Shown here: positions 13,556-42,625 of the stretch, one piece after another
Layout: each line of letters begins with the position of its first letter
Position numbering within the stretch: the first letter of the stretch is position 1
DNA from: Polaribacter sp. KT25b
Lineage (GTDB): Bacteria > Bacteroidota > Bacteroidia > Flavobacteriales > Flavobacteriaceae
Assembly (NCBI RefSeq): GCF_900105145.1
Contig: NZ_LT629752.1
Coordinates: 1,054,001-1,118,000 of the forward strand
Length of the DNA stretch: 64,000 nt
Reading direction: 5' to 3'
Made by a program: the position numbers and the translations under genes
Notes under the pieces: model-generated
The model's database searches: none
What the model was told of the DNA's origin: nothing
Seen by the model: the letters and a program-made list of their open reading frames with translations, nothing else

Positions 13556-13717
13556 TTATTTTTTATAAATCTCGTTTCGCTTTTCATACAATTTTGGTCT
13601 TTCTTCATTATAATCACATTCTTGAAAAATACCACAAGATACATTTGTGCGTGCTAAAGATTTTGTTATTTCAAATTGCTTAGATAAAGCTTCTATTTGT
13701 GGTGATAAATATTTCAT
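13556..13717 (-). CDS. Small ORF, 53 residues, hypothetical
   Basis: In an otherwise gene-free 436-bp stretch the minus strand encodes a 53-residue ORF from ATG to TAA. It begins MKYLSPQIEALSKQFEITK and contains two cysteines (VSCGIFQECDYNEERP). Composition is protein-like, with an amphipathic helical N-terminus and charged C-terminus. I do not recognise it; no signal peptide or membrane segment is seen. The remaining bases to 13913 hold nothing I can assign. Confidence 0.5.
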   Translation of the reverse strand: MKYLSPQIEALSKQFEITKSLARTNVSCGIFQECDYNEERPKLYEKRNEIYKK

Positions 13718-13913
13718 AATTATTTAGTATTTATTTTACAGTTTTCTTATTGATGTCAAAAGTAATATTTTAGTTAAAGCAGTATAATAATTAAGAGTTA
13801 ATTTAGTGTTATAATAAATGTTCAATCAAAATTTATTAAATTTACTAATATATTGATGTAACAAATGTGTTTGTAAACCTTCTAATATTATACGAACTTT
13901 AAAATAATATTTT

Positions 13914-14762: not shown

Positions 14763-14828
14763 TCGCAGAGTGATACCTAAGTTTTCAATTTTCCAAGGCT
14801 TGCCTTGATAAATAAATAAAAGGCATAA

Positions 14829-14861
14829 AAAAATCCCAAACGTTTTAGATTTGGGATTTTT
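14829..14861. terminator. Bidirectional terminator between AIM24-like and yebC genes
   Basis: 11-bp stem AAAATCCCAAA / TTTGGGATTTT with a 9-nt loop and T tracts on both sides, between convergent genes. A short inverted repeat CAAGGC-TT-GCCTTG lies just before it (14794-14807). Confidence 0.88.
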
Positions 14862-14883
14862 GTTTTATATATAATCTTTTTAA

Positions 14884-18193: not shown

Positions 18194-18195
18194 AT

Positions 18196-20289: not shown

Positions 20290-20362
20290 TTTTCTTAAAA
20301 TATGTGAGGCAAAAATAAAGGATAAAATAGTTAATTTTTGTGATAAATATCATTTAGTGTTT

Positions 20363-20391
20363 ATAAAAAAATAGGTTTAAGAGTTAAACCT
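20363..20391 (-). terminator. Terminator overlapping the acyl-CoA carboxylase stop codon
   Basis: Minus strand: AGGTTTAA-CTC-TTAAACCT hairpin (20373-20391) followed by ATTTTTTTATA. The stem begins within the last codons, so it includes the stop codon. Confidence 0.7.
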
Positions 20392-22012: not shown

Positions 22013-22050
22013 AAAAAATGATTGTATTTAATTGCTAAAATAAGAAAAAT

Positions 22051-23535: not shown

Positions 23536-23592
23536 AATATCAAAGATAATAATAAATAGCGAATTAAATAAAATAAAGTTTTTTTTAAATTT

Positions 23593-23636
23593 AGCGAACG
23601 TTCGCTTGTGGAGTTCAAAAATTATTTATATTATTG
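23593..23636 (+). promoter_or_regulatory. aceB promoter with palindromic operator AGCGAACGTTCGCT
   Basis: A perfect 14-bp palindrome AGCGAACGTTCGCT (23593-23606) abuts a -33 TTG (23606-23608). Twenty nt later is TATTATTG (23629-23636), one mismatch from TAnnTTTG. A half-site TAGCGAA recurs at 23557-23563, nearer the regulator gene. It is the likely binding site of the divergent ScfR/RamB-like protein. Confidence 0.6.
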
Positions 23637-23663
23637 CAGTATAGAAATTAAAAAAGTCTAATC

Positions 23664-25259: not shown

Positions 25260-25266
25260 AAAAAAT

Positions 25267-25297
25267 GTCTCGCAACTACTGTAATAGTTAACGAGAC
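25267..25297 (+). promoter_or_regulatory. Hairpin in the aceB-aceA spacer
   Basis: GTCTCG-c-AACTA-CTGTAA-TAGTT-aa-CGAGAC: two stacked stems of 6 and 5 bp with a small bulge. No T tract follows, so a terminator is unlikely; an mRNA processing or stability element between the two genes is more plausible. Confidence 0.5.
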
Positions 25298-25343
25298 GAA
25301 ATTATCAAAATCTAGAAAAACCTTAATAATCAAATACAAAATT

Positions 25344-27047: not shown

Positions 27048-30000
27048 TTATTTTCTAATCAAAGAAAAGTGTCCTTTTTTGTTGATGGCTGGTTTTGTTA
27101 TGTCCGCAGGAATTAGCGTAACATTAAACCAGTAATCATCAGAAGAAAGCGTTTTTCCTCCATAAGTTCCGTCCCAACCTTGGCCGTCAATTGGTAACTG
27201 AGCTACTAATTTTCCGTATCTGTTAAAAATATTGATACTACTATTTGGGTAAAAAGTTTTGTTTGCACCTCTTACAATCCAAGTGTCATTATCTCCGTCA
27301 GCATTTGGTGTAAAGAATTTTGGAAATTGAATAACAGAAACTAACAAAGTTGTATCTGGAGAACATCCGTTTTTATCGTTTACAATTATTTTATAAATTC
27401 CGCCTTCTAGGTTTTCAAAAAGAGGATCGTCTTGAAAACCAGCAAAAGGAATTCTCGTATTTTCATCTGTGTTTTCAATTGCAAATTGATAATCACCAGG
27501 ACCTAAATCATTGTCAATTGTGTTAATTGCTATAGATAAATTGCTTTCGCTACCAATATTATTAGATTCATCAATAATGGTGATAAAACTATTTTCTAAA
27601 GTTGCAATATTTGATTCGTTTATAACAATTGTTTCTGTTCTAGAACAGAAAGTTCCGTTAGTAGTTGTAGCAGTTACAGTGTAAGTTCCCGCAACGGAAA
27701 TATTAACATTGTCTTCTGTGCTAACTGTATCTCCGTTTTGATATTTCCAAACATATTCGTAAGTACCTTTCTGATTTTCTACAAAAATATTAAGTGGTAA
27801 ATTGTTTAAACACAAAATTTGCGGAGTTGTTACCGTAAAATCTGGTAATGGATTTACAATTACATCAAAAAAGGCATCATCATTTATACAGCCAGTTTTT
27901 TTGTTTTGTATGCGAACATAAATTGTTTCTGTTGCTGATGAGTTTTCGTAAGGAGATGAAATTGGTAAATCTCCAGATGTTGCATTTGCTTTTGATGAAT
28001 GAAAAGTTACATTAAAATCATCTGGATCTTGAGAAGCGCCTAAAATTTCAGGAATTTTCCCGTCTAAATCGATGGTTTGAATAATGTTATTTGCATCATC
28101 AAAATCATCATTATTATCACATTCAGAAAGATTAGAAATTGTTTCGAAAGTTGGTTCCGGATTTACAATTACATCAAAATTAGAAATTCCATTTGCACAT
28201 TGTGCATCAGCATTATAAACACGTACATAAATTGTTTCTCGATAAGGTGTTAAATTAGTATATGGTGAAACTAAAGGTGAATTTCCATTTTGTGCTTCTG
28301 CAAGTGATCTGTGATAAGTTACTGTAAATAAACTAGGATCTTGAGTTCCTAAAATTCCTGCAGTTTGGCTTTCTAAATTAATTGTGTCAGAGAACCCGTT
28401 TCTAGCAGAACCATCGGTATTATCATCGCAAACTTCTAAATCGCCTACAAAATTGGCAATTGGTAAAGGATTTACAATTAAATTAAAAGTTGTGTGATCT
28501 GTAAAACAGCCAGTTGAATTATTTGTAACTCTAACATAAATGGTCTGTAAATCTCTTACAGAATTTGTAAAAGGAGATGAAAGAGGATCGTTTCCAGAAT
28601 TTGCATTTGCGGCAGAATCATGATATGTAACTGTAAAATCTGCTGGATTTTGAGTTCCTAAAATTGTTGCAGTTTGACTTTCTAAATTAAAGCTTTGTAC
28701 AATTCCGTTTGTTGCGTCTCCATCATTTATATCGTCACATAATTCTAAATCATCAACAGTTTTTGCGGTTGGAACAGAATTGGTTTTTAAATATAATTCT
28801 CCAGTTCCATTACAATTGTTATTATTTTTGTTGGTGATTTTAAAATAAATAGTTTGTCTAGTTATGTTTGATGGAAAGCCAATGTTTCTGTAATTAGAAA
28901 TGTCGGTAATTTTGTTGATAACAGCAGTTCTGTCGTCTTTAGATTCGTAATAAGAAACTTCTAAATCGGGTCTTAAAATTGCAGGGAAGAAGAATAAAAT
29001 TTCTGATTCTGCGTCGCTAAAATTAAAATTAGTAATTCCGTCTGTATCATTATTTAATGCTCCGTTTGTTCCATCAGTTTGAAGAAAATCATCACAAACA
29101 GCTGGGAATTCTTTGTTGTAAATAACATCTGCAGAAGCTTCAACTTCTAAATTAATTTTAGAGATATTGTAGCATCCTTCAGTAGAAATTGTTCTAACCC
29201 AAGCTTCTCCATTTTGATTTACAGGATATCGTAATTTGTCTGTAATTTCTGGGGTTCCTGCTATTGCATGCGCTTCGGTTGCAAAATATGTAAAAGTTTC
29301 ATTTTTGTAATTTGATGAAATACTAATTTCTGCTTCAGTAAGGTTTATAGTAGAAATTCTGTCTAAATCATCATCACATTGTTTTAATTCTACAATAGCT
29401 GTAACTATTGGTTTAGGGTTAACAGTTAGGGTAATTATGTCTGATGTTATTGTACAGGCATTTCCCGTTCTATTTAAAACAACTCTGTACTTATTGTTGT
29501 TGTAAGTTAAAGGTATATTAGTAAGTTTTAACGAATTGGTGCTACTTTCACTATAGATAGCATCATCTGAAATGATGTTCCATGTTGTGCCGTCAATTGA
29601 AACCCACCATTGAAAACTATCAGCAGTAGTTTCTATTGTAATTGTGTCTGTAGAAGCTTCACAAAAAATTTCATCTTCAAATTTTGTAATAACTATTGGA
29701 GCGCTTGTTATATAATCTAAATTAGGAGTTGTATATCCATTTGTGATGTTTAATACTTTTCCATTTGTATCTACTTGAAATGGACTTGCGTCAATGATTC
29801 CATCGGAGTTAGCATCAGTAAAACCGGCTTCTTTAGTGTCAAAACAAGCATCATCGTCTGAGTCTAGTTCCAAGAAATTTAAAATAGTATCAGAATCAGT
29901 ATCTGTAATTGTGTAATTAAGAATTGCATTATCAGCAGTTGTTTCTAGATTGTTAATAAGACCGTTAATTCCAACTGAGGTTGCGTTTGCATCATCAATA

Positions 30001-32531
30001 ATTCCATCATTGTTTGTATCCACTAAATTATGACCAGCTTCTGCTAAATCAAAAATTCCATCATTGTCTGAATCAACATCTAAGTAATTAGGAATGCCAT
30101 CATTATCTGTGTCAATATTTGTGATAATTCCGTTAAAAATATCGTCTAAACCATCTTGATTTACATCAAGATTTGATAATATAATCTGTGGAGAAGAAGC
30201 TTCTGAAATATCAGGAATTCCATCATTATCAGAATCTAAATCAAACATGTTCTCAATTCCATCGCCGTCAGAATCCAAAGAAAAACAAGTAAGTTGAATG
30301 TTTCCATTAAATGTTGATGTAGCAGCTATTCCTGAAGATTGATGTTTAAAATCGATTTGATCTACTTGATTTGCTAAAAACTCAAAAGTACTTGCCGCTC
30401 CAGTTGTATTTGATTTATATTTATACCAGATTTCTGATGCAGAAATATTGGTAATTCCGTCTTCAAATTCGCCATCAAAATTAGTGTCGATTAAAAGTTG
30501 GTCATCAGGGTCTAAAAGTGTGATATTTTTAGAGTTTGGGCCAATTTTTAGGATAAAAAATTCTCCAGCAACTACTTTATGGTCAAAAGCTTTGTTTTGA
30601 GTAAATTTAAAGTTGATTTTTTGATTAAAGTTAATTTCATATTTTAATTTAGAATCTGTTGCAGGATTTATTACGGAAACAAAATCCCCTTCAGTATTTC
30701 CTGTAAAAGAATTGGTGGGTTCTGTTATTGTGAAAATAGGTGTTGTAATTGATGAAGTTTTTGTATTGTCTGCAAAAATTATTTCAGGATTATTAATATC
30801 TGATAAATTTAAAGCTGCGTTTCCAAAAGATTCATCACAATTTAAAATTCCGTCATTATCAAGATCAACATCTAAATTATCTATAATTAAATCGCCGTCA
30901 AAATCATCAGGACAAATACTAACAGGTATTTCAATAGATTCAAAAGTAGCTCCTGTACAGTCGATAATTCCAACTAATTTATATCTTCCAGGTTCAGATG
31001 CAATAGGTTTGTAACTAGAATTAGTACTTCTTTCTTCCCAAGTTAATGTGGTTTCATTGTAATAATACCATTTTATGCCTCCATCAAAAAGTTCTGTGTT
31101 TGCTGCTTGTAAAGTAATGTTAGGTATACAATTTCCTAAAGAAGAAACGGTTGTGTTAAAATTAATTTCTGGAGCAGAAGGAAACCCAGAATAAAAACTA
31201 CCAGAAGTGGCTGCTCCATTTCTGTTAAAATAAGCACAATATAATTCTTCGCTGCTTTCTACACTTACATTTCCTGTAAGGCCTGTTATTTTATAAGTAA
31301 CATAATCAGGGTTTCCGTTTACAGAACTTGGTCCAGTTGAACTAAATGAAGAGGTTGGTAGCCCATTAATACTAACAGTTGCGCCAGTATTTGTAACTAT
31401 CGTTACCCCTCCTCCAAAGTTATTACTTCCAATTTCGTCAATTGATGATATGTTGTCTACATTTCCTTTGCTTTCACAATTTAAAGGAGGTACAAAAAAT
31501 AAACCTTGGTTGGCGGCGTCGTCACCAAAACCAACACCTTGATAAGCAAATGCAGGTTTTGATGTTTCTATGTACATGTTTCCATTTGCATTGTAATATC
31601 CTCCTTCGATAACATGAAATTCTCCTGTGTTTATTGTTTTAACAACTGTACCTCCAACTTTTATTTCTGTATTGTTTTCGTGGGCAACAATAAGCACATT
31701 TTCCCATTCATCTTCTCCGTCTCCTCTAACAAAAATATATTCAGTTCCAATTTTTGATGCATCTACAATTTGATCTATACCATAGTCTCTATTATTACTG
31801 CCTTCATAAAAACTACCCGTTGCAGAACCCGAGTTTACTACAATAGGTTTTTCTGAGTGAATTAAAGTTCCTATTAAGTCATTTGGATCTCCTCCAGCAT
31901 CCGAAGATACAGAAACTATAAAGCTTTCTCCTCTATTTAGATTTTTTGTGAAAGGGAGAGAGCCAGAATAGTTGTTAATTGAAATTCCTGCAGAAAAATC
32001 ATCAAAAGTAATATTAGTATCATCTTCTGTTGCCATTACAGAAATAAAATTTAAAAAACCTCCTTTGGGAGAAGGGCTCCAAAAACCTCCCATTCTAAAA
32101 TCGGTTCCTAAAGCCGAATTCCCTTTACTAACTATTGCTGCTGCTTGAAATGTACTTGAAGATACCATTCTGATTGAAACATAGATTACGTCGTCTGCTT
32201 CAATAATATAGCCTTTAGTAGTTATAATTGTTGCGGTATTATTAGATTCTTGAAATAATTGATCGCCAACTCTTGATGAAGTTGTAGTGTAGGGTTTAGA
32301 GTTTGAAACAGTTCCTTTTATTTCTTCGGATGAAGGTCTACCGATAGGTGTTATTGTAAAGTTAACATTATTATTTTTAGGAGTAGAAATATATATGTAT
32401 TGATTTTCAATAGGATCATCACTCGTAATTGGTGGTAAATAATGTGTTTTACTTAATTGAGCATTAGTGTTTTGAAAAGTAAAAAAACTAATTAAAAATA
32501 GAATTGAATAAAAAAAGGATTTTTTTAACAT
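27048..32531 (-). CDS. Large T9SS type B surface protein (IgGFc-binding-like N-terminus, TSP3-like calcium repeats, tandem repeats)
   Basis: A 1827-residue exported protein (signal peptide ends near TNAQ). The first ~450 residues resemble the IgGFc-binding-like domain found at the N-terminus of Bacteroidota surface proteins. Aspartate-rich thrombospondin type 3-like calcium motifs follow (about 555-580 and 755-920, e.g. DSDNDGIPDISEA). Then come several ~90-residue repeats (about 1210-1580), each with (E/L)CDDxxDG...VTYHxSxAxAxxG...TIYVRVxN. A gliding-motility-type C-terminal sorting domain ends it (about 1740-1827: FPKFFTPNADGDNDTW, FNRYGKLV, GWDGTYGGK). It is probably an adhesin or matrix protein. 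Confidence 0.9.
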   Translation of the reverse strand: MLKKSFFYSILFLISFFTFQNTNAQLSKTHYLPPITSDDPIENQYIYISTPKNNNVNFTITPIGRPSSEEIKGTVSNSKPYTTTSSRVGDQLFQESNNTATIITTKGYIIEADDVIYVSIRMVSSSTFQAAAIVSKGNSALGTDFRMGGFWSPSPKGGFLNFISVMATEDDTNITFDDFSAGISINNYSGSLPFTKNLNRGESFIVSVSSDAGGDPNDLIGTLIHSEKPIVVNSGSATGSFYEGSNNRDYGIDQIVDASKIGTEYIFVRGDGEDEWENVLIVAHENNTEIKVGGTVVKTINTGEFHVIEGGYYNANGNMYIETSKPAFAYQGVGFGDDAANQGLFFVPPLNCESKGNVDNISSIDEIGSNNFGGGVTIVTNTGATVSINGLPTSSFSSTGPSSVNGNPDYVTYKITGLTGNVSVESSEELYCAYFNRNGAATSGSFYSGFPSAPEINFNTTVSSLGNCIPNITLQAANTELFDGGIKWYYYNETTLTWEERSTNSSYKPIASEPGRYKLVGIIDCTGATFESIEIPVSICPDDFDGDLIIDNLDVDLDNDGILNCDESFGNAALNLSDINNPEIIFADNTKTSSITTPIFTITEPTNSFTGNTEGDFVSVINPATDSKLKYEINFNQKINFKFTQNKAFDHKVVAGEFFILKIGPNSKNITLLDPDDQLLIDTNFDGEFEDGITNISASEIWYKYKSNTTGAASTFEFLANQVDQIDFKHQSSGIAATSTFNGNIQLTCFSLDSDGDGIENMFDLDSDNDGIPDISEASSPQIILSNLDVNQDGLDDIFNGIITNIDTDNDGIPNYLDVDSDNDGIFDLAEAGHNLVDTNNDGIIDDANATSVGINGLINNLETTADNAILNYTITDTDSDTILNFLELDSDDDACFDTKEAGFTDANSDGIIDASPFQVDTNGKVLNITNGYTTPNLDYITSAPIVITKFEDEIFCEASTDTITIETTADSFQWWVSIDGTTWNIISDDAIYSESSTNSLKLTNIPLTYNNNKYRVVLNRTGNACTITSDIITLTVNPKPIVTAIVELKQCDDDLDRISTINLTEAEISISSNYKNETFTYFATEAHAIAGTPEITDKLRYPVNQNGEAWVRTISTEGCYNISKINLEVEASADVIYNKEFPAVCDDFLQTDGTNGALNNDTDGITNFNFSDAESEILFFFPAILRPDLEVSYYESKDDRTAVINKITDISNYRNIGFPSNITRQTIYFKITNKNNNNCNGTGELYLKTNSVPTAKTVDDLELCDDINDGDATNGIVQSFNLESQTATILGTQNPADFTVTYHDSAANANSGNDPLSSPFTNSVRDLQTIYVRVTNNSTGCFTDHTTFNLIVNPLPIANFVGDLEVCDDNTDGSARNGFSDTINLESQTAGILGTQDPSLFTVTYHRSLAEAQNGNSPLVSPYTNLTPYRETIYVRVYNADAQCANGISNFDVIVNPEPTFETISNLSECDNNDDFDDANNIIQTIDLDGKIPEILGASQDPDDFNVTFHSSKANATSGDLPISSPYENSSATETIYVRIQNKKTGCINDDAFFDVIVNPLPDFTVTTPQILCLNNLPLNIFVENQKGTYEYVWKYQNGDTVSTEDNVNISVAGTYTVTATTTNGTFCSRTETIVINESNIATLENSFITIIDESNNIGSESNLSIAINTIDNDLGPGDYQFAIENTDENTRIPFAGFQDDPLFENLEGGIYKIIVNDKNGCSPDTTLLVSVIQFPKFFTPNADGDNDTWIVRGANKTFYPNSSINIFNRYGKLVAQLPIDGQGWDGTYGGKTLSSDDYWFNVTLIPADITKPAINKKGHFSLIRK

Positions 32532-32726: not shown

Positions 32727-34070
32727 ATGTCTGATGATTTTGATTTATTAGAAACTAATTCTGCTGAAAAAACTGAAAAGGTAGATGTAAATTGGGGTAA
32801 AGCTGTAGATACTATGAAGTCTAAATTGGCTCAAGAAGATGATCCTCAACAACGTCAAAAAATCTTAAATGCTACCTTAGATGATGTTGTACATATGGCA
32901 GAAAAAGATAGAACTACACTTTTAGATGCTATTAAAGATTTAACAGACTATCAAGATGAAGTTGGTATTATGTTCGAAAAATTTTCGGCATTAAACCCAA
33001 CAGAACAAAAAGTGATAGACGATGCTCAAAAAGAACTAGAAAGAGCAAGAATTGAATTAGAAGACGCACAAAATAAACCAGATACTTGGTGGAACAATCT
33101 TTGGGGAAGAAAATCCAAGATTAAAAAAGAAGAAGTAGAGTTTGCAGAAGCAGAAAAAATTAGAGCAGGAGCAGATAATAAAGCAAAAGCAATGTTTCAG
33201 CAACGTATAGAAAGTGCAGATATTCAAACTTTATTAAGTGAACTTTCTTATAAATCTCAAGCAGCAGTAAGTCGTTTAAAAAACAGAGAAGTAGAAATTA
33301 AAGAAGTTGAAGAAAAGCTAAAAGATGCAATTGTAGAAGCTTCTAAAAACCATACAAAAGCTTTAGAAAAGAAGAAAGAAATAGAAGATAAGTTAGAAGA
33401 GCAATATGCTTTATTAAAACAATCTCGTCAAGAATTAGACGAAATTGCTGACAAACAATCTACAGAATATTCAGAAGCTATTGGAAAAGTTACCACTTTA
33501 GAGCAAAAAGTAGAAGAGTTAGAAGGTCTTAAAAATGCATATACAACTTTAGCAGCTTCCAAAGATAGTTTTGTTCACAAACACAATTTAACAATCAAAG
33601 TTTTAACTTCTTTGCGTTCAAATTTACAAACACATAGAGCTAAATTAAAGTCAGATACTGAAGAGCGATTAAAGTATTATGATGGTTATGTAGTTGCCTT
33701 AAAAGCAAGAACAGATCAAGAATTTGCGGCTATTTTAGAGCATTTAGGAGTAAAAACCGATGAGCATATAGGTGCAACTTTAGCGTCAATGCATTCTGCA
33801 AGTGCCAGAGCTCGTCAAGAAATGATGGACAATATTCCTGTTCACGAAAAAGTAATGAAAGGTGTGTACAGCACTTATGCAGAAGCGTTACAAGAAATTA
33901 GAGAAAAGGATGGAGATATTCAAAAGAACTTTGCAGACAGATATGGAATTGATATGAAAGAGATTTTCGAAGATTTCTATAAAGCTGATAAAGAAACTCC
34001 AGTTTTAGAAGATAATTCCACAACAGAAGCACCTAAAAAAGAGGTTTCTGATGATGATATGTTAAGCTAA
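32727..34070 (+). CDS. Cytoplasmic coiled-coil protein, first gene of AAA+ cluster
   Basis: A 447-residue acidic protein with no signal peptide or membrane segment. The N-terminal ~100 residues are helical (WGKAVDTMKSKLAQEDDPQQRQKIL). Long coiled coils occupy about 95-135 and 185-300 (VEEKLKDAIVEASKNHTKALEK). The tail ends in DDDMLS. Length and helicity recall PspA/ESCRT-III-like or TelA-like partners of AAA+ proteins, but I cannot align it to either. The family is unrecognised. Same strand as the downstream AAA+ genes, interrupted by a repeat and a toxin-antitoxin pair. Confidence 0.75.
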   Translation: MSDDFDLLETNSAEKTEKVDVNWGKAVDTMKSKLAQEDDPQQRQKILNATLDDVVHMAEKDRTTLLDAIKDLTDYQDEVGIMFEKFSALNPTEQKVIDDAQKELERARIELEDAQNKPDTWWNNLWGRKSKIKKEEVEFAEAEKIRAGADNKAKAMFQQRIESADIQTLLSELSYKSQAAVSRLKNREVEIKEVEEKLKDAIVEASKNHTKALEKKKEIEDKLEEQYALLKQSRQELDEIADKQSTEYSEAIGKVTTLEQKVEELEGLKNAYTTLAASKDSFVHKHNLTIKVLTSLRSNLQTHRAKLKSDTEERLKYYDGYVVALKARTDQEFAAILEHLGVKTDEHIGATLASMHSASARARQEMMDNIPVHEKVMKGVYSTYAEALQEIREKDGDIQKNFADRYGIDMKEIFEDFYKADKETPVLEDNSTTEAPKKEVSDDDMLS

Positions 34071-34091
34071 TTTTTAAAAGAAAATTATTTG

Positions 34092-34195
34092 AAGGGCGTT
34101 TCCCTGATGAAAAATCAGGGTCAGGCTTTCCATTATATCTTTTTTCAGAAAAAGAAAAAAGGATGCCATTTCAATCCTTAACGCAGGCTTACTTG
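34092..34195. repeat. Interspersed non-coding repeat, copy 1 (two hairpins plus ATGCCATTTCAATC core)
   Basis: The element reads GGGCGTTTCCC, hairpin CCCTGAT-GAAAA-ATCAGGG (34102-34120), TCAGGCTTTCC, hairpin CTTTTTTC/GAAAAAAG (34139-34161), then ATGCCATTTCAATC (34163-34176) and CTTAACGCAGGCTTA. Elements of this design are, from memory, scattered through flavobacterial genomes. A relative lies at 42.7 kb. Nothing else is seen in the 34071-34279 spacer except the promoter of the toxin-antitoxin pair. Confidence 0.6.
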
Positions 34196-34272
34196 TTGCT
34201 TTTTAGATAACTAAAAGTGCATTGTTTATTTAAAGATAATATCAAATTAAAACACAAAATATAAATATATAT

Positions 34273-34280
34273 TATATTTG
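34273..34280 (+). promoter_or_regulatory. -7 element of the toxin-antitoxin operon (TATATTTG)
   Basis: TATATTTG ends 17 nt before the ATG of the antitoxin gene. It argues against the GTG at 34280 as the start, since that GTG overlaps the box. Confidence 0.5.
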
Positions 34281-34297
34281 TGAAAAATAAATATAAA

Positions 34298-34543
34298 ATG
34301 GCAACATTCACATCTTCTTTACCAGATGCTCTTTTAGAAAAACTATCAACTTTAGCAAAAGAGTTAAAGCTTCCTAAAAATAGGCTTATAGAAAATGCTT
34401 TAGAATTATACTTAGAGCAAATAGAAAAAGCGAGTTATATAAAATCGTATCAGCAAGCTGCTACAGATAAAGATATTTTAGTGGTTGCAGAAGAAGGTAT
34501 GCAAGATTATTTTAATACTGTTAATAATGCAGATTCTAAATAA
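34298..34543 (+). CDS. Ribbon-helix-helix antitoxin
   Basis: An 81-residue protein from the ATG at 34298 (an in-frame GTG six codons earlier is less likely). The N-terminal half is a ribbon-helix-helix: beta strand ATFTSSLP, then LLEKLSTLAKELKLPKNRLIENALELYLEQ. The C-terminal tail (AEEGMQDYFNTVNNADSK) probably wraps the toxin. Its stop codon shares one base with the toxin start, the usual coupling of antitoxin and MazF-like toxin. Confidence 0.85.
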   Translation: MATFTSSLPDALLEKLSTLAKELKLPKNRLIENALELYLEQIEKASYIKSYQQAATDKDILVVAEEGMQDYFNTVNNADSK

Positions 34544-34875
34544 TGAAGCAAGGTGAAATTTGGGAGTTATATTTAAATCCTACAGAAGGAAGTGAACAAA
34601 GTGGAAGAAGACCAGCTGTAATTATTAGCGGTAATATGCTAAACAAATATTTACAAGTTGTAATTGTTTGTCCTTTAACCACAAGTGTTAAGAATTATAA
34701 AGGCAATTTAATTATCAAACCAAATGCAAAAAATGGTTTAACTAAAATTTCTGAAGTATTAACTTTTCACGTTCGTTCAGTTTCTAAAACACGTTTCGAT
34801 AAAAAATTAGGCGAAATTCCATTAAAAGATGTTGAGGTCATTAAAAAAACCTTAAACGATATTTTGAAGTACTAG
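34543..34875 (+). CDS. MazF/PemK-like toxin (endoribonuclease)
   Basis: A 110-residue MazF/PemK-fold protein: KQGEIWELYLNPTEGSEQSGRRPAVIIS at the N-terminus (loop and RP motif), CPLTTSVKNYKGNL and HVRSVSKTRFDKKLGEI. The family cuts mRNA when freed from antitoxin. The ORF appears intact. It ends 2 nt before the next gene of the AAA+ cluster, so read-through is likely. Confidence 0.9.
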   Translation: MKQGEIWELYLNPTEGSEQSGRRPAVIISGNMLNKYLQVVIVCPLTTSVKNYKGNLIIKPNAKNGLTKISEVLTFHVRSVSKTRFDKKLGEIPLKDVEVIKKTLNDILKY

Positions 34876-34877
34876 CT

Positions 34878-35921
34878 ATGATAACAACTCCCTTAGATTC
34901 TGCTGTTTTAAACACCAAAGAACAATACGTTTTTTATCACAAAATGGTAGATTTTGTTTTAAAAGAAATTATTGTAAGAATACAGCAAGAGCAATTGTGC
35001 AGTCAACAAGAAGTGGTGTTTTTTAAGCAATATTCAGATTTACTTTTATATTCTATTGAGGCAATGCGTATTAAATATATGTATGATGAAGAAGATAATA
35101 TGAAAGTAGATTTAACAGATTCTGGATTCCCTAATTATTTAGAATTTAGATATTTGTATAACGATTTAGAGCTTAGAAAACAATATTTAGATAAATTAGT
35201 AGATACAAGTATTTTAAAAGAACAATTTTTAGATACGCTTTTAAGAAAAAAGCAACCCATAAAAAAAACAGAACTTTTTAAAGCATCATCAATAATTTAT
35301 TACACTTCTGTAGAAAGACAATTCATTTTCAATCGATTTGTGCAAGGTAAAATTTTAGATGCTCCAAAAGATGCGAATTACGATTATGTTACCAGCTGGA
35401 GTTTTTACGATGTTAGTCATAATAGACCATTTATCTGTTTTATGTATTTCAATTACGATGGAAATAATGCGATTAAGGATAAAGAAAAAATTTATCAAAC
35501 TTTAAAAGAAAGTGCAGATAGAGAAATGTCTTTAGACACAATGGCTTATAATATTGATCGAAAATTAACAGGAATTCAACCAAAACACATCAAAAGAATA
35601 GATCTTGGGCCTTTACACAATGTTTTTGCTAAGGATGAAAACCAAATTACACACGCAATTTTAAGCGGAATTTCAAGCAAAACAGTTTCATTAGAATCTT
35701 ATGCTGTTTCTTTAACCATTGATGAAGTTTTTTCTGGAGACACATTTACAGAAGGCGGATTTTTCTCAAAACAGACAATGCAAAAATGGAGCGATGTTAT
35801 CAAACAAAAATATCTTTTTGCACCACATAGAATTATTCAACTTTTGCACAATCAAATTCCTAGGTCACTAGATAATTTAGCCAAAGAACCTATTCAAATG
35901 GCAGATTTGAAAGTTAAATAA
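34878..35921 (+). CDS. Unknown protein of the AAA+ cluster (347 residues)
   Basis: A soluble, mixed alpha/beta protein with no signal peptide or membrane segment. The N-terminal ~130 residues are helical (KMVDFVLKEIIVRIQQEQLCS). A beta-rich centre follows (YDYVTSWSFYDVSHNRPFICFMYFNYDGNN). No catalytic motif or known domain is recognised. It lies 2 nt after the MazF-like gene and 70 nt before the AAA+ gene, so it is part of the same transcription unit. It may be an adaptor or substrate of the ATPase; that is inference. Confidence 0.65.
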   Translation: MITTPLDSAVLNTKEQYVFYHKMVDFVLKEIIVRIQQEQLCSQQEVVFFKQYSDLLLYSIEAMRIKYMYDEEDNMKVDLTDSGFPNYLEFRYLYNDLELRKQYLDKLVDTSILKEQFLDTLLRKKQPIKKTELFKASSIIYYTSVERQFIFNRFVQGKILDAPKDANYDYVTSWSFYDVSHNRPFICFMYFNYDGNNAIKDKEKIYQTLKESADREMSLDTMAYNIDRKLTGIQPKHIKRIDLGPLHNVFAKDENQITHAILSGISSKTVSLESYAVSLTIDEVFSGDTFTEGGFFSKQTMQKWSDVIKQKYLFAPHRIIQLLHNQIPRSLDNLAKEPIQMADLKVK

Positions 35922-35991
35922 AATTTGAAAAAGAATTACAAAATTAGTAAGTGGCTAACAGCCAAAATCAAATTGCTAAAAGCTAAAAAAA

Positions 35992-37953
35992 ATGGAACAC
36001 AATTCAACTTTCCCTATAAAACAAAACGAATTAGATATGCTTCGTGATGAAGCTACAGATTATATAAAAACCGTTCAATGGGAGCAAGGTAATAAAGCAA
36101 AAAGTAGGGAAAAAGATGCGAAAGACGATTCTATTTTACTGTATTTATCAAGAGCAAATAATGGAAGTAATGTAGAAATTACATCTGTTTCTAAAACCAT
36201 TTTAGCACTTAAAAAAAGATTATTGCCAGATTCAATTGCAATTCCTGTGCATTTAAATCAGACTTTATTTGCAGTGCAAGAAGGCTTAACTTTAGGAATT
36301 TGGATTAAAGATTCTTACTATGATGCATCAGGTTTATCTTCTTTAAACGAGCGTAAATCTGGCTTAAATTCATCCCAAAAAAGAGAGTTCGAAAGTAAGT
36401 TACAAACAGCAACAGCATTTCAATTATTTGCAACTGCTTATAAAATTTTACACGATTTAAAACCATCTGCTAGTGATGATTTATCTGTAATGAAACAGAA
36501 ATTTGCAGGTATTCCAGAAGTGTCATTTTTATCACCTTTAAAAGGAATTGCTTGTGCATTATTTTATTTTGATAAATATTTAGGACATCCAGAAATCATA
36601 AAATCAGATAAAGATGTTATCGATTTTACAGTAGTGTATTTCGAAGCTTTAATTGATGAAATTCAGTTGCGTAAAAGTAGTTTAGAATACACAGAAACTA
36701 TTGTTGATAGAACCTACAAACTAGAAAATTCTGATTTTGCTATTTCTGGTTGGGAAAACGTTTTTCAGGGTACAGCAAAAAGTGTTGAATTTAATAAAAT
36801 TCAATTTGAGCAAATTGTAGGGAACAAAGATGCCAAACATTTTGCACGTAGATTAACAGAAAGAATGCTGAGTTATGATTTTGAAGCACAGAAAAATCCG
36901 TTTCAAGAATTAGGTGGATTTATGCCCGTTTTTATGGGATATGGAATTCCAGGAACAGGAAAATCGATGTTAATTGCGGCCATAGCCACTCGTTTAAAAG
37001 AACATTGTGATCATTTAGATATTCCGTTTTTATTTCATCCAATGCCAGACACGTTAATTTCAACTTTTCAAGGTGGTTCTGCAGAAAAAATGGTAGAATG
37101 GATGAAACCTATGCAAGATCCTACAAAAATAATTTTTGCGCCTATTGATGATGCTGAGAATAATTTACAAGAAAGAACTGCACAAGGTGTTTCTGCTGGA
37201 GTTAAAGAAGTTATTGGTGTTTTCTTAAGATATACAGAAGGTGCTTATGCCGTAAATTATGGAAATTCTTCAGTAGGTTTATTTACAAATTTGCCAGAAA
37301 TGTTAGACAAAGCTGTAATTTCTAGAATTCAAGGTCGATTTAAGATTGATGGCGCAAGAACTGAGCACGATTTTCTAGATCAAGATTACATTTGGTGGAA
37401 GAAATTTGAAAAAACAATGCCAGGTTTTGTGAATATGCAAAATCCAAAAAAATACGATTTTTTAAAAGATCAAGGTTTAACCAAAAGTATGGGCGAAATT
37501 CTAAATGCAATAGAAAAACCATCAGAAGCAAGGGTTTTAGAAGCCTATGACAAAGCAAGTCAGAATCATAAAACCAACGAACATTCGTTTTTTGCAAGTT
37601 TGTATAAAGAAATTCAAAACATATTTCCTTTCTTTTCATCAAGAGATGTTAGAAACATTCAGTCTGCAATTTCTTTGCGATTAACAGATTTTGATTTAGA
37701 ACAAGATTGGTTCGTTAATCCTGAAATTTACTTTAAAAAAGATTATCAAACGAAGTTTAATATGTTACAAGAATTAATGAAAGCCAATATGAAAGGCCTC
37801 GATTTTTCTGAAATTAGAAGACAAGAAGTTGTCAGATATTTAGACAATGTTGCAACTATTGCAGATACCGATTTTAAACGTAAAGTTGATGCAAGAGTAA
37901 ATCAATTGAATATAGATTTAGAAGCGAGAAAAAGTTTTGAAAATGGAAATTAA
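35992..37953 (+). CDS. Classical AAA+ ATPase with long N-terminal domain
   Basis: A 653-residue protein. The N-terminal ~290 residues show no known domain. The AAA+ module starts near 300: Walker A GIPGTGKS (318-325); Walker B-like IIFAPIDDAE, in which D387 replaces the usual Glu; and the sensor/arginine-finger region LFTNLPEMLDKAVISRIQGRF, close to the classical AAA T-N-x-P-x-x-L-D-x-A pattern. A C-terminal helical domain ends it. Such ATPases remodel or unfold proteins, often at membranes. The Nudix gene overlaps its last codons. Confidence 0.88.
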   Translation: MEHNSTFPIKQNELDMLRDEATDYIKTVQWEQGNKAKSREKDAKDDSILLYLSRANNGSNVEITSVSKTILALKKRLLPDSIAIPVHLNQTLFAVQEGLTLGIWIKDSYYDASGLSSLNERKSGLNSSQKREFESKLQTATAFQLFATAYKILHDLKPSASDDLSVMKQKFAGIPEVSFLSPLKGIACALFYFDKYLGHPEIIKSDKDVIDFTVVYFEALIDEIQLRKSSLEYTETIVDRTYKLENSDFAISGWENVFQGTAKSVEFNKIQFEQIVGNKDAKHFARRLTERMLSYDFEAQKNPFQELGGFMPVFMGYGIPGTGKSMLIAAIATRLKEHCDHLDIPFLFHPMPDTLISTFQGGSAEKMVEWMKPMQDPTKIIFAPIDDAENNLQERTAQGVSAGVKEVIGVFLRYTEGAYAVNYGNSSVGLFTNLPEMLDKAVISRIQGRFKIDGARTEHDFLDQDYIWWKKFEKTMPGFVNMQNPKKYDFLKDQGLTKSMGEILNAIEKPSEARVLEAYDKASQNHKTNEHSFFASLYKEIQNIFPFFSSRDVRNIQSAISLRLTDFDLEQDWFVNPEIYFKKDYQTKFNMLQELMKANMKGLDFSEIRRQEVVRYLDNVATIADTDFKRKVDARVNQLNIDLEARKSFENGN

Positions 37954-38533
37954 AAAGAAAATTAACAACGTTTCATCAACCTTAAAATCTAATGGTTGGG
38001 GAAAATTAGAAGACATAAATTTTGACTATACTTTTGAGAGTGGAACATCAAAAAACCTAACTTTCGAGATTTATGGTAAAAGTGATGGAATTGCCATTTT
38101 GTTATTCAATCCTAAAACTAATAAAGTAATTTTATCCAAACAATTTAGAGTTCCTGTTTATGTTCACGGATTTTCTGATGGATTTTCTATTGAAGTTGTT
38201 GGTGGTGCAATCGATAAAGATGAATCTCCAGAACATGCTGCAATTCGCGAAACTGAAGAAGAAGTTGGGTACAAAATAGATAAAGTTAAAAGAATAAGTA
38301 CGGTTTTTTTATCTCCAGGAATTGTAAACGAAAAAGTGCATCTTTTTATTGGTGAATATGCTGATGAAAATAAAACCGAAAATGGAGGAGGAGTACTAGC
38401 AGAAGATGAAGAAATAGAAGTGTTAGAAACTGAATTCTCAGACGCTTTAAAAATGATAGCAACCGAAGAAATTATTGATGCAAGAACAATTATGTTATTG
38501 CAATATTTACAGATTAATAAACTGCTAAAATGA
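37943..38533 (+). CDS. nudK: NudK-type Nudix hydrolase (GDP-mannose/ADP-sugar pyrophosphatase)
   Basis: A 196-residue protein from the ATG at 37943, overlapping the AAA+ gene by 11 nt. The Nudix box is complete: G-(5)-E-(7)-REtEEEvG (GAIDKDE...RETEEEVGY). Flanking sequence strongly recalls Escherichia coli NudK: ILSKQFRVPVYVHG before the box, FLSPGIVNEKVHLFIGEY after it, and EDEEIEVLE near the end. NudK splits GDP-mannose to GMP and mannose 1-phosphate. A nucleotide-sugar or ADP-ribose substrate is likely, but specificity is inferred. Confidence 0.8.
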   Translation: MEIKKKINNVSSTLKSNGWGKLEDINFDYTFESGTSKNLTFEIYGKSDGIAILLFNPKTNKVILSKQFRVPVYVHGFSDGFSIEVVGGAIDKDESPEHAAIRETEEEVGYKIDKVKRISTVFLSPGIVNEKVHLFIGEYADENKTENGGGVLAEDEEIEVLETEFSDALKMIATEEIIDARTIMLLQYLQINKLLK

Positions 38534-38982
38534 GTGGATTCGAAGAGTTTGATAATTATCAAGCTAAATTTGAAAAAGCAAGTATAGGAAGAAGAATAGT
38601 TGCGTCTGTAATAGATTTTATTATTTATTACTTTGTTTGTGTCTTTTTGGCATTAGTTTTAGATAATTCTTCTGAAAGCATTTTTAGCTTTCATTTAGAA
38701 GGTTTTTCAGCTTTAGTGGCATTTTTAATTGGTTTTTTTCTTTGGCCAGTAAGCGAAGGAATTTGGGGACAAACTATAGGAAAACGTTTTATGGATATTA
38801 AAGTGGTTTCTAAAGATTATACTGATGTTAATATGGGGCAAGCTTTTGGTCGTTTTGTTTTAGGATTTATTGATTGTTCTTTTATTAGCGGAATTATTGC
38901 TACAATAATAAATAAAGACAACCAGAGAATTGGAGATATGGCTGCAGGAACATTTGTAATTAATAGTAAATATAAAGAATAA
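38530..38982 (+). CDS. RDD-family membrane protein
   Basis: A 150-residue membrane protein with the RDD hallmarks: an N-terminal ASIGRRIVASVIDFIIYYF segment, a second hydrophobic stretch (about 60-75), WGQTIGKRFMDIKVV, and a third helix with GDMAAGTFVI at the end. It overlaps the Nudix gene by 4 nt (ATGA), implying translational coupling. RDD function is poorly known; some members are transporters. Confidence 0.88.
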   Translation: MSGFEEFDNYQAKFEKASIGRRIVASVIDFIIYYFVCVFLALVLDNSSESIFSFHLEGFSALVAFLIGFFLWPVSEGIWGQTIGKRFMDIKVVSKDYTDVNMGQAFGRFVLGFIDCSFISGIIATIINKDNQRIGDMAAGTFVINSKYKE

Positions 38983-39076
38983 AAGAAGATGTTATTTTTT
39001 AATAGGTAAGAATAACTTTTAAAAAACTCAGAGATTCTCAGTGATTTTTTTCGTTGATTATCAGTGAAATAAGAAT

Positions 39077-40312
39077 ATGCAAAAACTAATCAAAGCCAAT
39101 TTATACAGAAGCGAACTAATTCCTATTAGCGGAAAATTAGTAGAACGTTATAATAAATGTTTAGTAAAATTAGGTTTTACAAAAACCAAATTAACATCAT
39201 TTTCTATAGACGGAATTGGTTGGAGTCCAGAAATTGCAGAAGAAAAGAGCGAGGTGTTTTATTTAAATAACGGGGAAGCAAATCCGCATGCAATAATAAT
39301 TACACCATTGCAAAAAGGATTGCCAATTTACAATCCATTTCATTCTTTTGATGTAGAACTGATGAAATTAGTGTTTAGAACACATCAACAAAAAATTCAA
39401 AATATAACAAGAGATTCTGCACTTTGTATTGATTTTGATCAAAGTATTGATGTTTTTTACGAACCTTTAGATGTATTAAAATATCAAGATGTAGAAATCA
39501 AATTTCATTTAATAGATAATTTGCACAAAGCAAAAGAAGAACAATTAAAACTTATAGAAACTTTTCATAAAGACAATAATTTTATTGATGAAAACTTGCA
39601 TCAAAAATTATTAAAATCAGCAAAAAAATATGGCGATTTAAGAGAAAGGGATATTAGTTTAGAGTCTATTATTTATACATCAGATTCATTTTATACCAAG
39701 GCGTTTGGGGGTGTCTATTTGTTGAGAAACTTTATAAAACCAATTCTTGTTTTCGAAAATCAAGAAGCTTATAAAGAAGCAATAAATGACACAACTTACG
39801 ACGTGTTGATGTTTCATATAACACAACCAGAATTGGTTACACAATTAAGAGATCACGTAATTATTGAGTGTGATTTAACTAAGGAAGTTACCTCAAAAAG
39901 ATACGAGCGAATTAAGAAATTTATTTTTGGAGAAGCTTTAAAAGAAACACAACATCCTGTAAATGATATTTTAAAGGATAAAATGTTATTTAAAAGTTAT
40001 TTGAATAAGGTTGATATAAAAACACGAAAAAAAGTAATGAGTGTAGAACGATATTTGGAGAAAAAACAAATCAATCCAGATATTAAAATTAAAGATATTG
40101 TAGATGAAGAATTTTATTTTTCATTACACAAACCACATTCATCATTAAGACCAAATCATCAAGATTTAATTTGGAAACTGTTGATAAACATTGCTCCAAA
40201 AGATGTGTTGTTTTGGTATTGGTATGATAAAGAAAATTTTTATGCAAATTTTAAAAATTGGGAAGAATCAAAAAAAGATTGGGTTGTAGAAACTATTAGT
40301 AACAATTTCTAA
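39077..40312 (+). CDS. Unknown cytoplasmic protein of the AAA+ cluster (411 residues; possibly DUF6638)
   Basis: A soluble 411-residue protein, no signal peptide. Segments such as GIGWSPEIAEEKSEVFYLNNGEANPHAIIITP and a C-terminal tryptophan/tyrosine-rich end (DVLFWYWYDKENFYANF) look conserved in style. It may belong to the Bacteroidota DUF6638 family, but that is from memory and uncertain. It follows the RDD gene after 94 nt containing a short repeat-like stretch (CTCAGAGATTCTCAGTGATT and relatives). No function can be assigned. Confidence 0.65.
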   Translation: MQKLIKANLYRSELIPISGKLVERYNKCLVKLGFTKTKLTSFSIDGIGWSPEIAEEKSEVFYLNNGEANPHAIIITPLQKGLPIYNPFHSFDVELMKLVFRTHQQKIQNITRDSALCIDFDQSIDVFYEPLDVLKYQDVEIKFHLIDNLHKAKEEQLKLIETFHKDNNFIDENLHQKLLKSAKKYGDLRERDISLESIIYTSDSFYTKAFGGVYLLRNFIKPILVFENQEAYKEAINDTTYDVLMFHITQPELVTQLRDHVIIECDLTKEVTSKRYERIKKFIFGEALKETQHPVNDILKDKMLFKSYLNKVDIKTRKKVMSVERYLEKKQINPDIKIKDIVDEEFYFSLHKPHSSLRPNHQDLIWKLLINIAPKDVLFWYWYDKENFYANFKNWEESKKDWVVETISNNF

Positions 40313-40353
40313 AAAAAAAGACTAACTTTATAAGGACTTCAAAATTTAAAATT

Positions 40354-40872
40354 ATGACATTAGAATTAATTGTATTTATAACCTCAATTTTATTTGGAGT
40401 TGTTATTTATTGGAGAGAATCTCAAGGAAATGGAATGTATCGTTTTTTTAATAAAATAATGAATTCTAAAGAGTTACAAATGAAATTAACAGATAAAAAA
40501 GGATTTGTTTATCAGCAATCATTTTTGTTAAGATTGGTATTTGTAACCTCTTTGTTTTTGATTGTAATTGTTATAACTCGCTTTTTAATACCTATTGATT
40601 TAGCAACAATTTCATTATTTGCATCCATGATTTTTGGAACATTGATAGGAACATATATCGCTAATTTTATTTTTAAATCTAGCGAAGTTATAGAAGAACA
40701 ATCAGAGTCTTTTGAAGTAAAACTTGATGAAGTTCTAGAAAAAGGAAAAGACTTTATTGACGATTTACAAATCAAAGATGCTAAAGAAGAAGTAGCGATA
40801 AAAAAAGAAACACCAAAAACGGATAAAAAAAGTGCAAGAGAACGTCTAAAAGATAAAGGATTTTTGAAATAG
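40354..40872 (+). CDS. Small membrane protein with cytosolic charged tail
   Basis: A 172-residue protein with an N-terminal helix (about 2-18) and two central hydrophobic helices (about 54-75 and 82-105). An acidic-to-basic tail follows (SEVIEEQSESFEVKLDEVLEKGKD...KKSARERLKDKG). No known domain. The topology suits a membrane anchor offering a cytosolic tail to partners. It sits 41 nt after the 411-residue gene and 61 nt before the next, as part of the AAA+ cluster. Confidence 0.65.
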   Translation: MTLELIVFITSILFGVVIYWRESQGNGMYRFFNKIMNSKELQMKLTDKKGFVYQQSFLLRLVFVTSLFLIVIVITRFLIPIDLATISLFASMIFGTLIGTYIANFIFKSSEVIEEQSESFEVKLDEVLEKGKDFIDDLQIKDAKEEVAIKKETPKTDKKSARERLKDKGFLK

Positions 40873-40933
40873 AAGACCTTTATTTGGTTGTTATTAAAGA
40901 AAAAAAGTTTATTCGTGGCAAAATATTAAAAAA

Positions 40934-42625
40934 ATGATAAAAACATATTGGAACAAAGGTTCAAAACAAAAGAAAAGAGTCATTATATTTAGTATAATAT
41001 TGTTAGCATTATTATTCTTTTTAAGAGACGATTATCAACCTGTATTATTATTTATAAGAAAATTTATTTTTATTATTTTACTTTGTTTTACTGTTCTTTT
41101 CTTCGGATTAAGAAAGTTCAGAAAATCAGTAGGTGCAGGAAAAAGAATAGGAATTTTATTGCTATTAACCATGTTTTTTACACTTATTTATTTTGTAGGT
41201 TTTCATTACAATATGTATGATTATATGAAAACGTACAATGTTTATAACAATTTAAACCGTTATGAAATTGTAGAACTTCCGCTAACACAAAACGAAAGAA
41301 TTCAACCATTAAGAAATATTTTTTCGATGGCAAATGAATCTGTAGGCGAAACCAAAGATGTTTCTTTACCGCATTTGGTAAGAGTTGATGGAAAAAACCA
41401 ATGGACAATGGCAATTCAACCAACAGAAAAATATGTTTGGCAAGGTATTAAAGACAATACAGAAGAGGTTTTTTCTGTGTCAAGTACAACACCTTTTCCT
41501 CGTTTTTCATCAGAAAATAGAATTCCGGTTACATTCTCAATTGGTGAATCTTTAAAGTTTAGTAGAAATACGTATAATGCAGTTGTGCAACGTTTAAATC
41601 CTTGGATGTTATTCAACTACGAGCCAAGTGACACCTATTACATGAAAAACGACAAAGGAGCTTGGGTTGAGGTTGTAAGTTTAATAAAATGGAAAGGTTT
41701 CTTTTTTCCGTATCCAACTTTTGGTGGTGTGATGGTTATAGATAATGGCGAACACGATTTTAAAGATTATTTAGAAAGAATTACAATAGGAAAAGGAACC
41801 TATATTTCTCCTGAAGAAATGAAAAACTTTGCATATTTAACAAGACAAAATACGCTGGCAGAAAAAGTATCTCGATTGCAAGCAGAAAGTTTAAAGTTTT
41901 TAGCAGGTTTTTCTGATCCTTTACCTTGGAACATGAAAAGTGCAGTGAAAATCCCTATTGCTCCAAAAGATCAAAATGCACAACCTTATGTTACAGATTT
42001 CGATTTTTCAGACACAAAAACAGACGCATATAGTGGCTTATATCATTGGTTTGGTTTAGAGCCTGTTGGCGATGAAAGAACAAGTTTAAGTTACAGTGTT
42101 TTTATTCCTGCAGACGGAACAAATAAGTTTTATTATTACGATCATGCATCAAAAAAACAAGGTTATGCAGGCGTTTCTGCAATGCCATTAAAAGTAAAAG
42201 AATCTAAAAAAGAATACGATTGGAACTCAAATACACCCGTAGAATTTAGACCTTATATTAAAAATATTGCAGGTAGAAAACGTATGTTTTTTCTAGGAAC
42301 AGTTTCTACAATTAGCAATAATAATCCAGAACAATTTGATGGTTCTGCAACGCCAGATTTAGCGTTGGTAGATAGTGAATATAGAGATGTTGTTTGGATA
42401 AATGCTAAAAAACCAAGTACTTGGAATGAGGAGTTGTACAATCAATTAAACGAAGCTTGGCGAACCAGTGAAGGAGCGAATGTGTATTTTGAAAAAGAGA
42501 AAACTATTTTAGAAAAAAATCAACAAATATTAGATTCTATTAAGTTAATTTCTAAGCAAGAAAAGAGTGTAAAAGAAATTCAACGTTTGCAACAACAAAT
42601 AGATTCTATTAAATTTAATCAGTAA
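40934..42625 (+). CDS. Large membrane-anchored protein, last gene of the AAA+ cluster
   Basis: A 563-residue protein with three N-terminal hydrophobic helices (about 15-30, 34-52 and 70-92), then a large domain of about 400 residues, beta-rich, probably on one face of the membrane, and a C-terminal coiled coil (about 515-563: ILEKNQQILDSIKLISKQEK). I do not recognise the family. The gene ends the co-directional cluster; a repeat copy lies immediately downstream. Confidence 0.65.
   Translation: MIKTYWNKGSKQKKRVIIFSIILLALLFFLRDDYQPVLLFIRKFIFIILLCFTVLFFGLRKFRKSVGAGKRIGILLLLTMFFTLIYFVGFHYNMYDYMKTYNVYNNLNRYEIVELPLTQNERIQPLRNIFSMANESVGETKDVSLPHLVRVDGKNQWTMAIQPTEKYVWQGIKDNTEEVFSVSSTTPFPRFSSENRIPVTFSIGESLKFSRNTYNAVVQRLNPWMLFNYEPSDTYYMKNDKGAWVEVVSLIKWKGFFFPYPTFGGVMVIDNGEHDFKDYLERITIGKGTYISPEEMKNFAYLTRQNTLAEKVSRLQAESLKFLAGFSDPLPWNMKSAVKIPIAPKDQNAQPYVTDFDFSDTKTDAYSGLYHWFGLEPVGDERTSLSYSVFIPADGTNKFYYYDHASKKQGYAGVSAMPLKVKESKKEYDWNSNTPVEFRPYIKNIAGRKRMFFLGTVSTISNNNPEQFDGSATPDLALVDSEYRDVVWINAKKPSTWNEELYNQLNEAWRTSEGANVYFEKEKTILEKNQQILDSIKLISKQEKSVKEIQRLQQQIDSIKFNQ

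Follow-up and report, generated by a model that had tools for sequence, protein, structure and literature searches.

An AAA ATPase gene set shared by Flavobacteriaceae and Alphaproteobacteria: a candidate membrane-attached protein-remodelling machine

Introduction

The window analyzed here is a stretch of 64,000 nt from Polaribacter sp. KT25b (contig NZ_LT629752.1, positions 1,054,001 to 1,118,000), whose genome is a single contig of 3.95 Mb. Between positions 32727 and 42625 it carries ten genes arranged around an AAA ATPase, which raises the question of which of them belong together and what the resulting unit might do. An earlier note, made from the sequence alone, had described an AAA-centred, membrane-linked cluster, had suggested membrane remodelling or protein extraction as its role, and would have been refuted had the genes been found together only in close relatives. 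Our analysis revealed a core of six genes that persists far beyond close relatives (60 loci, more than 40 genera), four of which cross phyla. In order, the core encodes a soluble, apparently coiled-coil protein (CC), a soluble protein termed U347 (U for the family), the AAA ATPase, a DUF6638 protein and the membrane proteins TM172 and TM563. With a probability of roughly 0.5, we propose that the products of this locus form a protein-remodelling machine, so far undescribed, that is attached to the inner membrane.

Core Gene Set in Flavobacteriaceae

A search for the AAA protein covered 397 evenly drawn Flavobacteriaceae genomes, that of the window included, and detected it in 114 of them (76 of 237 genera), with one copy per genome. 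In 112 the match spans at least 645 of the 651 positions and scores no less than 1116 bits, the remaining two (G491 and G668) being partial or split; since nothing further was detected at an E-value of 1e-6, the distribution is bimodal. Neighborhoods of up to 20 kb were taken from 60 of the positive genomes, hand-chosen to spread over the score. In these loci tblastn recovered CC in 56, U347 in 57, AAA in 60, DUF6638 in 58, TM172 in 55 and TM563 in 54, and wherever the genes were present their order and strand were unchanged. The Nudix hydrolase gene of the window was found in 16 of the same loci, and the RDD, ribbon-helix-helix (RHH) antitoxin and PemK toxin genes in 1 each, the last two in the same locus (L101). 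Blind clustering of open reading frames (ORFs) over 61 loci (the 60 and the window) returned the same six families, covering 53-61 loci, while the next covered 27, 22 and 22. As the tblastn counts and the blind clustering agree, the core consists of six genes, and the conservation of this set exceeds chance.

The cluster proposed in the earlier note is therefore real, but its membership has to be redrawn without the Nudix, RDD and toxin-antitoxin genes. The Nudix enzyme, regarded there as a nucleotide-signal arm of the machine, and the RDD protein are not supported as parts of it by the counts in the 60 loci. Among 14 loci of the same genus, window included, Nudix was present in 12, RDD in 4 and PemK in 5, the last counted in clipped loci. 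The DUF6638 and TM172 genes overlap by 4 nt in 20/55 loci, and the AAA and DUF6638 genes by 1 or 4 nt in 13/58. U347 of L061 and TM563 of L064, L074 and L085 contain internal stops and were omitted from the family alignments.

The occurrence of the core genes was also compared in a fixed sample of 59 relatives, namely 36 genomes of the genus, including that of the window, and 23 belonging to different families within the order. When searched singly, CC, U347, AAA, DUF6638 and TM563, the five proteins covered by this test, were found to match the same 14 genomes. At the laxer threshold used for AAA, two further matches of 18.8 and 17.2 bits appeared, both weak and both to other AAA proteins. 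Seven genomes with incomplete neighborhoods were re-searched for TM563 and U; L069, also incomplete, lies on a 4.6-kb contig and was left out. TM563 was recovered elsewhere in all five genomes without a local copy (G717, G435, G615, G469 and G144) and U in two of three (G717, G563 and G406), the one without a U match being G717, whose genome is 88% complete. In G435, which is one contig, TM563 (near 2.68 Mb) is far removed from AAA and U (near 1.83 Mb), indicating that the core set survives splitting.

Furthermore, the pairwise distances of the six core genes correlate with r of 0.76-0.93 over the 48 of the 60 loci having all six genes and no stops, values that are uncorrected for the tree and inflated by shared ancestry. 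For Nudix against the core, r was 0.39-0.57 over 15 loci, a subset with fewer lineages, which in itself lowers r.

Homologous Clusters in Alphaproteobacteria and Vibrio

A tblastn search of 72,556 plasmid records showed that AAA and DUF6638 match the same ten, from Vibrio (4), Sinorhizobium (4), Rhizobium (1) and Shinella (1). All five of those examined carry CC (~360 aa), U (~380 aa), AAA (~635 aa) and DUF6638 (~430 aa) in that order, and a DUF2333 gene follows this quartet in the two Sinorhizobium stretches and the Shinella stretch, with none in those of Rhizobium or Vibrio. Among 84,980 species genomes scanned, at least 563 confirmed relatives of AAA were found. The best 80 of these, ranked by similarity to a Vibrio sequence and hence not a census in their composition, are all alphaproteobacterial by title (Roseovarius, Sulfitobacter, Ruegeria, Mesorhizobium, Hellea and others). 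Together with the five plasmid stretches they give 85 loci, of which 85 carry AAA, 84 U, 83 CC and 82 DUF6638; with one exception, discussed below, the misses lie at contig ends.

The CC and U proteins of the window match 43 and 45 of the 85 loci directly at an E-value of 1e-4. Comparison of the Flavobacteriaceae and alphaproteobacterial profiles by hhalign gave 97.1% for CC, 99.8% for U and 100% for both AAA and DUF6638, against 0.1-0.3% for six mismatched family pairs used as a control; the ~360-aa protein encoded first in the alphaproteobacterial clusters is thus a homologue of CC. The genes following the quartet encode other membrane proteins, namely DUF2333 (23 loci), a membrane protein of ~88 aa (52 loci) and a DUF1523 protein (55 loci), so that the membrane part looks exchangeable.

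DUF6638 itself was found in 20 of 299 Pseudomonadota genomes, including the carrier used as the center of the search, and in 4 of 296 Bacteroidota genomes, all of the family of the window and its own genome included. Given that the quartet is conserved, that the membrane genes differ and that the Bacteroidota matches are confined to one family, these comparisons suggest transfer between phyla with a change of membrane partner.

AAA Motor and Partner Proteins

In the numbering of the window, the AAA protein displays K324 in Walker A, D386-D387 in Walker B, a pore loop F359-Q360-G361-x-S363 with Gly as x, N433 as sensor 1 and R445/R449, roles assigned from the AAA consensus and the PF00004 match. 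Residues K324, G361, D386, D387, N433, R445 and R449 are invariant in 60 Flavobacteriaceae and 84 alphaproteobacterial or Vibrio sequences, and position 359 of the pore loop is always aromatic, Phe in the former and Tyr in the latter. The best sequence matches in the PDB were a VCP-like ATPase (E 2e-4), Vps4 and RPT4, all over residues ~265-452 only; the N-terminal ~260 residues had no match in this search.

With regard to the soluble partners, the Roseovarius homologue of U was modeled with a predicted local distance difference test score (pLDDT) of 91.3 and a predicted template modeling score (pTM) of 0.90. The model consists of an N-terminal helical bundle and a C-terminal domain that is weakly T-fold-like. 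Of its 50 listed structural neighbors, which score low, 38 are enzymes that we take to belong to the T-fold superfamily: urate oxidase, dihydroneopterin aldolase/epimerase, GTP cyclohydrolase I, 6-pyruvoyl tetrahydropterin synthase and QueF-like proteins. Two QueF-like entries account, through their chains, for eight of the ten top Foldseek rows. The model of a Ruegeria DUF6638 homologue (pLDDT 85.7) gave no Foldseek row in the PDB with an E-value below 0.88 and no convincing match there. TelA (PF05816) was considered as an identity for CC and rejected, there being no Pfam hit and hhalign values of 0.1% and 1.5% against a thin profile of four TelA sequences.

Hydropathy places hydrophobic segments of TM172 at residues ~1-22 and 55-102, followed by a soluble tail. 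TM563, judged by hydropathy and alignment, has about three N-terminal transmembrane helices and then a soluble domain of ~470 aa that is likely periplasmic. No homologue of either protein was found in the alphaproteobacterial clusters.

Variable Junctions and Their Cargo

Gaps of more than 250 bp were counted between neighboring core genes in the 60 Flavobacteriaceae loci. They were present at 6/56 CC/U junctions, 11/57 U/AAA, 21/58 AAA/DUF6638, 9/55 DUF6638/TM172 and 5/54 TM172/TM563; counting by ORF clusters with the window included gave 7/57, 11/58, 22/58, 9/55 and 5/53 in the same order. For the alphaproteobacterial and Vibrio loci the gap counts were 26/81 (CC/U), 9/83 (U/AAA), 55/80 (AAA/DUF6638) and 0/52 (DUF6638/small membrane protein). 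The AAA/DUF6638 junction therefore tops the other tested junctions in both lineages. Compared with flanking gene pairs in Flavobacteriaceae it also appears enriched (22/58 vs 15/89, p 0.006), with p-values that are descriptive, given related sequences and a small flank control; two single flank pairs (7/28 and 7/19) approach its insert rate.

The cargo is diverse. Among 48 proteins from the alphaproteobacterial AAA/DUF6638 junction we found DUF559 nucleases (4), PIN (2), Mrr (1), PhdYeFM (1) and AbiJ_NTD4 (1), and at least 26 matched no family. For 40 Flavobacteriaceae cargo proteins from all junctions, the matches listed include 23S_rRNA_IVP (6), SnoaL_2 (5), GIY-YIG (4) and amidohydrolase (3). 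Left out of these scans were 12 of 60 alphaproteobacterial ORFs, set aside by eye and including some that are DUF559-like or probably spurious, together with 15 of 55 from Flavobacteriaceae, of which 14 were Nudix copies. Because the Nudix, RDD and toxin-antitoxin genes are rare in the 60 loci and their junctions carry unrelated genes elsewhere, they are non-core, and in the window they are passengers in variable junctions. In a genome of the same genus (G144, contig C5, locus L093), the AAA and DUF6638 genes lie ~9 kb apart (122679 to 131847), which is very large for a variable junction, and the part of L093 that was fetched shows Nudix and RDD genes within this gap.

Proposed Function and Alternatives

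In the proposed machine, the AAA protein would form the usual ATP-driven ring in the cytoplasm, and its aromatic pore loop would act at the inner membrane, where it may pull on or disassemble substrates that are presumably proteins. CC, U347 and DUF6638 would be cytoplasmic proteins that it cannot do without, binding it as adaptors or scaffold. TM172 and TM563 would anchor the assembly in the membrane and expose a domain to the periplasm, and with such anchors it could have the envelope as its target or as a source of signals. The remodelling or extraction role suggested in the earlier note is one that we likewise infer, whereas computation shows the gene set, its all-or-none occurrence in the sample, the homology and gene order across phyla, the motor residues and the membrane segments. 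More specifically, and tentatively, we picture a trans-envelope AAA machine with a ring-forming, T-fold-like adaptor, a CC scaffold, a DUF6638 protein of possibly new fold and lineage-specific inner-membrane proteins with periplasmic domains, common to Flavobacteriaceae and Alphaproteobacteria and bearing a hypervariable cargo site within its operon.

Several observations weigh against this proposal. Of 395 Bacteroidota genomes searched, only 5 gave an AAA match, all of the family of the window and its own genome included, so the protein is not generally needed. An Asp-Glu pair was looked for at Walker B, and the canonical Glu was found to be Asp in 144 of 144 sequences; hydrolysis may consequently be slow or regulated. 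As the protein scores above the Pfam threshold, we treat this as a variant inside the AAA superfamily. The membrane partners of the two phyla have no detectable homology (hhalign 0.5-1.7% against TM172 and TM563; for TM563, 0.6% with DUF2333 and 0.5% with DUF1523), which weakens any specific membrane mechanism. In addition, Roseovarius sp. ZX-A-9 (L124) has CC, U and AAA, with no DUF6638 match in ~12 kb downstream, and on a Vibrio vulnificus megaplasmid (L113) a gene annotated mfd, not a membrane gene, follows the quartet at 12130-15591.

The alternatives differ in what they make of the partners and of the cargo. In an anti-phage or conflict system, the AAA protein and sensor or effector partners would target invading DNA or phage proteins, with the junction genes as exchangeable effectors. 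We consider this unlikely. PADLOC, which gives AAA a weak match to IetA (E 1.4e-5, residues 317-485), returned no hit for U, DUF6638 or TM172 and weak ones for CC and TM563 (E at least 0.012). Although the cargo does include PIN, Mrr, DUF559, AbiJ_NTD4, Phd/YefM or PemK proteins and inserts are over-represented at the AAA/DUF6638 junction of both lineages (in sequences that are not independent), much of the cargo is of non-defence type (SnoaL, amidohydrolase, signal peptidase and others) or family-less. The patchy occurrence of AAA in the 59 relatives and the 397 Flavobacteriaceae fits a defence role, but each genome carries one copy, and 50,697 phage records contained no match. Moreover, defence genes are expected to diverge faster than AAA and CC do, the mean identity over 48 loci being 79% and 83%, respectively. 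It is similarly doubtful that the locus encodes a dedicated assembly or activation chaperone (MoxR/CbbQ-like) for a single enzyme or surface complex whose genes lie elsewhere, TM563 or its alphaproteobacterial counterparts being part of the client. Such a chaperone would agree with a dedicated AAA protein having co-occurring partners and with membrane partners that differ by lineage, as expected if the client differs, but no further gene is conserved beside the core in Flavobacteriaceae and no MoxR or VWA family was detected among the ten window proteins scanned.

Rather improbable, in our view, is an enzyme or sensor system, in which U347 would be a T-fold enzyme or a sensor of a purine- or pterin-like ligand, regulated or delivered by AAA and the partners; the T-fold neighbors of the U homologue and the QueF-like chains at the top of the Foldseek rows point in this direction. 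Finally, that unrelated genes are merely adjacent in one lineage fits the toxin-antitoxin pair, RDD and largely Nudix, while for the core it is contradicted by the four-gene order across phyla, the all-or-none occurrence and the retention after splitting, and we regard it as very improbable.

The gene set matters in that a motor and three obligate-looking soluble partners stay together in 114 of the 397 Flavobacteriaceae genomes (by the AAA count) and in many Alphaproteobacteria, although the searches made here found no function attached to them. This strict co-occurrence makes the unit testable, since losses of single genes would be expected to share one phenotype. Assigning a function to the set would, in addition, provide three DUF families and some nameless protein families with their first role.

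Locus Layout and Surroundings

All listed ORFs of the cluster were confirmed, and their strands and overlaps are as the earlier note gave them (Table 1). With the Nudix start taken as the ATG at 37943, the AAA and Nudix genes share 11 nt; the ORF called mechanically begins at a TTG at 37937. Nudix and RDD share 4 nt. The identities proposed for AAA, Nudix, RDD and PemK were borne out by Pfam and NCBIfam scores. Five of eight proteins had been thought to lack a family; this holds for four (447, 347, 172 and 563 aa), and the 411-aa protein belongs to DUF6638.

Table 1. Genes of the cluster in the window.
Gene	Positions	Strand	Family evidence
Core gene 1: CC, 447 aa, soluble, apparently coiled-coil	32727..34070	+	No Pfam or NCBIfam family above cut-off
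RHH antitoxin, non-core cargo of the CC/U junction	34280..34543	+	Pfam
PemK/MazF-type toxin, non-core cargo of the CC/U junction	34543..34875	+	Pfam
Core gene 2: U347, 347 aa, soluble	34878..35921	+	No family above cut-off
Core gene 3: AAA ATPase	35992..37953	+	PF00004, 38.6 bits (gathering 21.2)
Nudix hydrolase (YffH/AdpP), optional cargo of the AAA/DUF6638 junction	37943..38533	+	TIGR00052, 147.6 bits (cut-off 79.55)
RDD membrane protein, optional cargo of the AAA/DUF6638 junction	38530..38982	+	71 bits
Core gene 4: DUF6638 protein, 411 aa	39077..40312	+	PF20343, 125.7 bits (gathering 27)
Core gene 5: TM172, 172 aa, membrane	40354..40872	+	Hydropathy; no family above cut-off
Core gene 6: TM563, 563 aa, membrane	40934..42625	+	Hydropathy; no family above cut-off

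A check of operon structure by promoter and terminator patterns was uninformative (38 and 2 found vs 52.6 and 3.0 in shuffles). A Flavo-1 RNA (RF01705, 59.3 bits, gathering 42) lies at 34115-34193 on the minus strand, between the CC and antitoxin genes; nothing on it was found in the open-access literature. Divergent from the cluster, at 27048-32531 (minus strand), is a gene for an apparently secreted protein of 1827 aa, whose C-terminal region resembles, by eye, gliding or type IX secretion surface proteins. Further upstream (17009-26975), ORFs resembling acetate kinase, phosphotransacetylase, a carboxylase and glyoxylate-cycle enzymes were recognized by eye.

Comparison with Known Systems

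DUF6638 is not named in the open-access literature searched, the coverage of which leaves out most subscription journals, and DUF6638, DUF2333 and DUF1523 were not found joined as one set in that literature. All three are uncharacterised single-family labels in Pfam, the first being core gene 4 and the others adjoining alphaproteobacterial quartets. An hcp locus of Pseudomonas fluorescens MFE01 is reported to hold a DUF2333 gene, called uncharacterised, next to a Nudix gene (PMC5256989); the adjacency is probably a coincidence.

Among known systems, the classical AAA remodellers (CDC48/VAT, Vps4, FtsH and proteasomal ATPases) share with the AAA protein Walker A, the aromatic-x-G loop, the sensor-1 Asn and the two Arg. 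It differs from them in its own N-terminal ~260 residues, the DD of Walker B, unrelated partners and the absence of a peptidase hit. For FtsH in particular, the NCBIfam model scored 13.9 bits against a cut-off of 600, and no zinc peptidase family was detected on the AAA protein. By analogy, a classical-type AAA protein with membrane proteins and a soluble helical partner next to it may recall Vps4 and ESCRT-III. However, the CdvC model reached 17.1 bits against a cut-off of 650, and CC gave no ESCRT-III or PspA family hit by sequence. IetAS likewise has an AAA ATPase, to which the PADLOC match amounts to 22.6 bits, but no IetS was found among the seven proteins scanned and the other neighbors differ. 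As for the T-fold enzymes (QueF, DHNA, PTPS, GTP cyclohydrolase I and uricase), the C-terminal domain of U may share their topology, while U has an extra N-terminal helical bundle, no sequence match and low structural scores. No tested family claims the gene set, and its partners appear to form a set undescribed within the literature searched, built around a motor that is itself classical.

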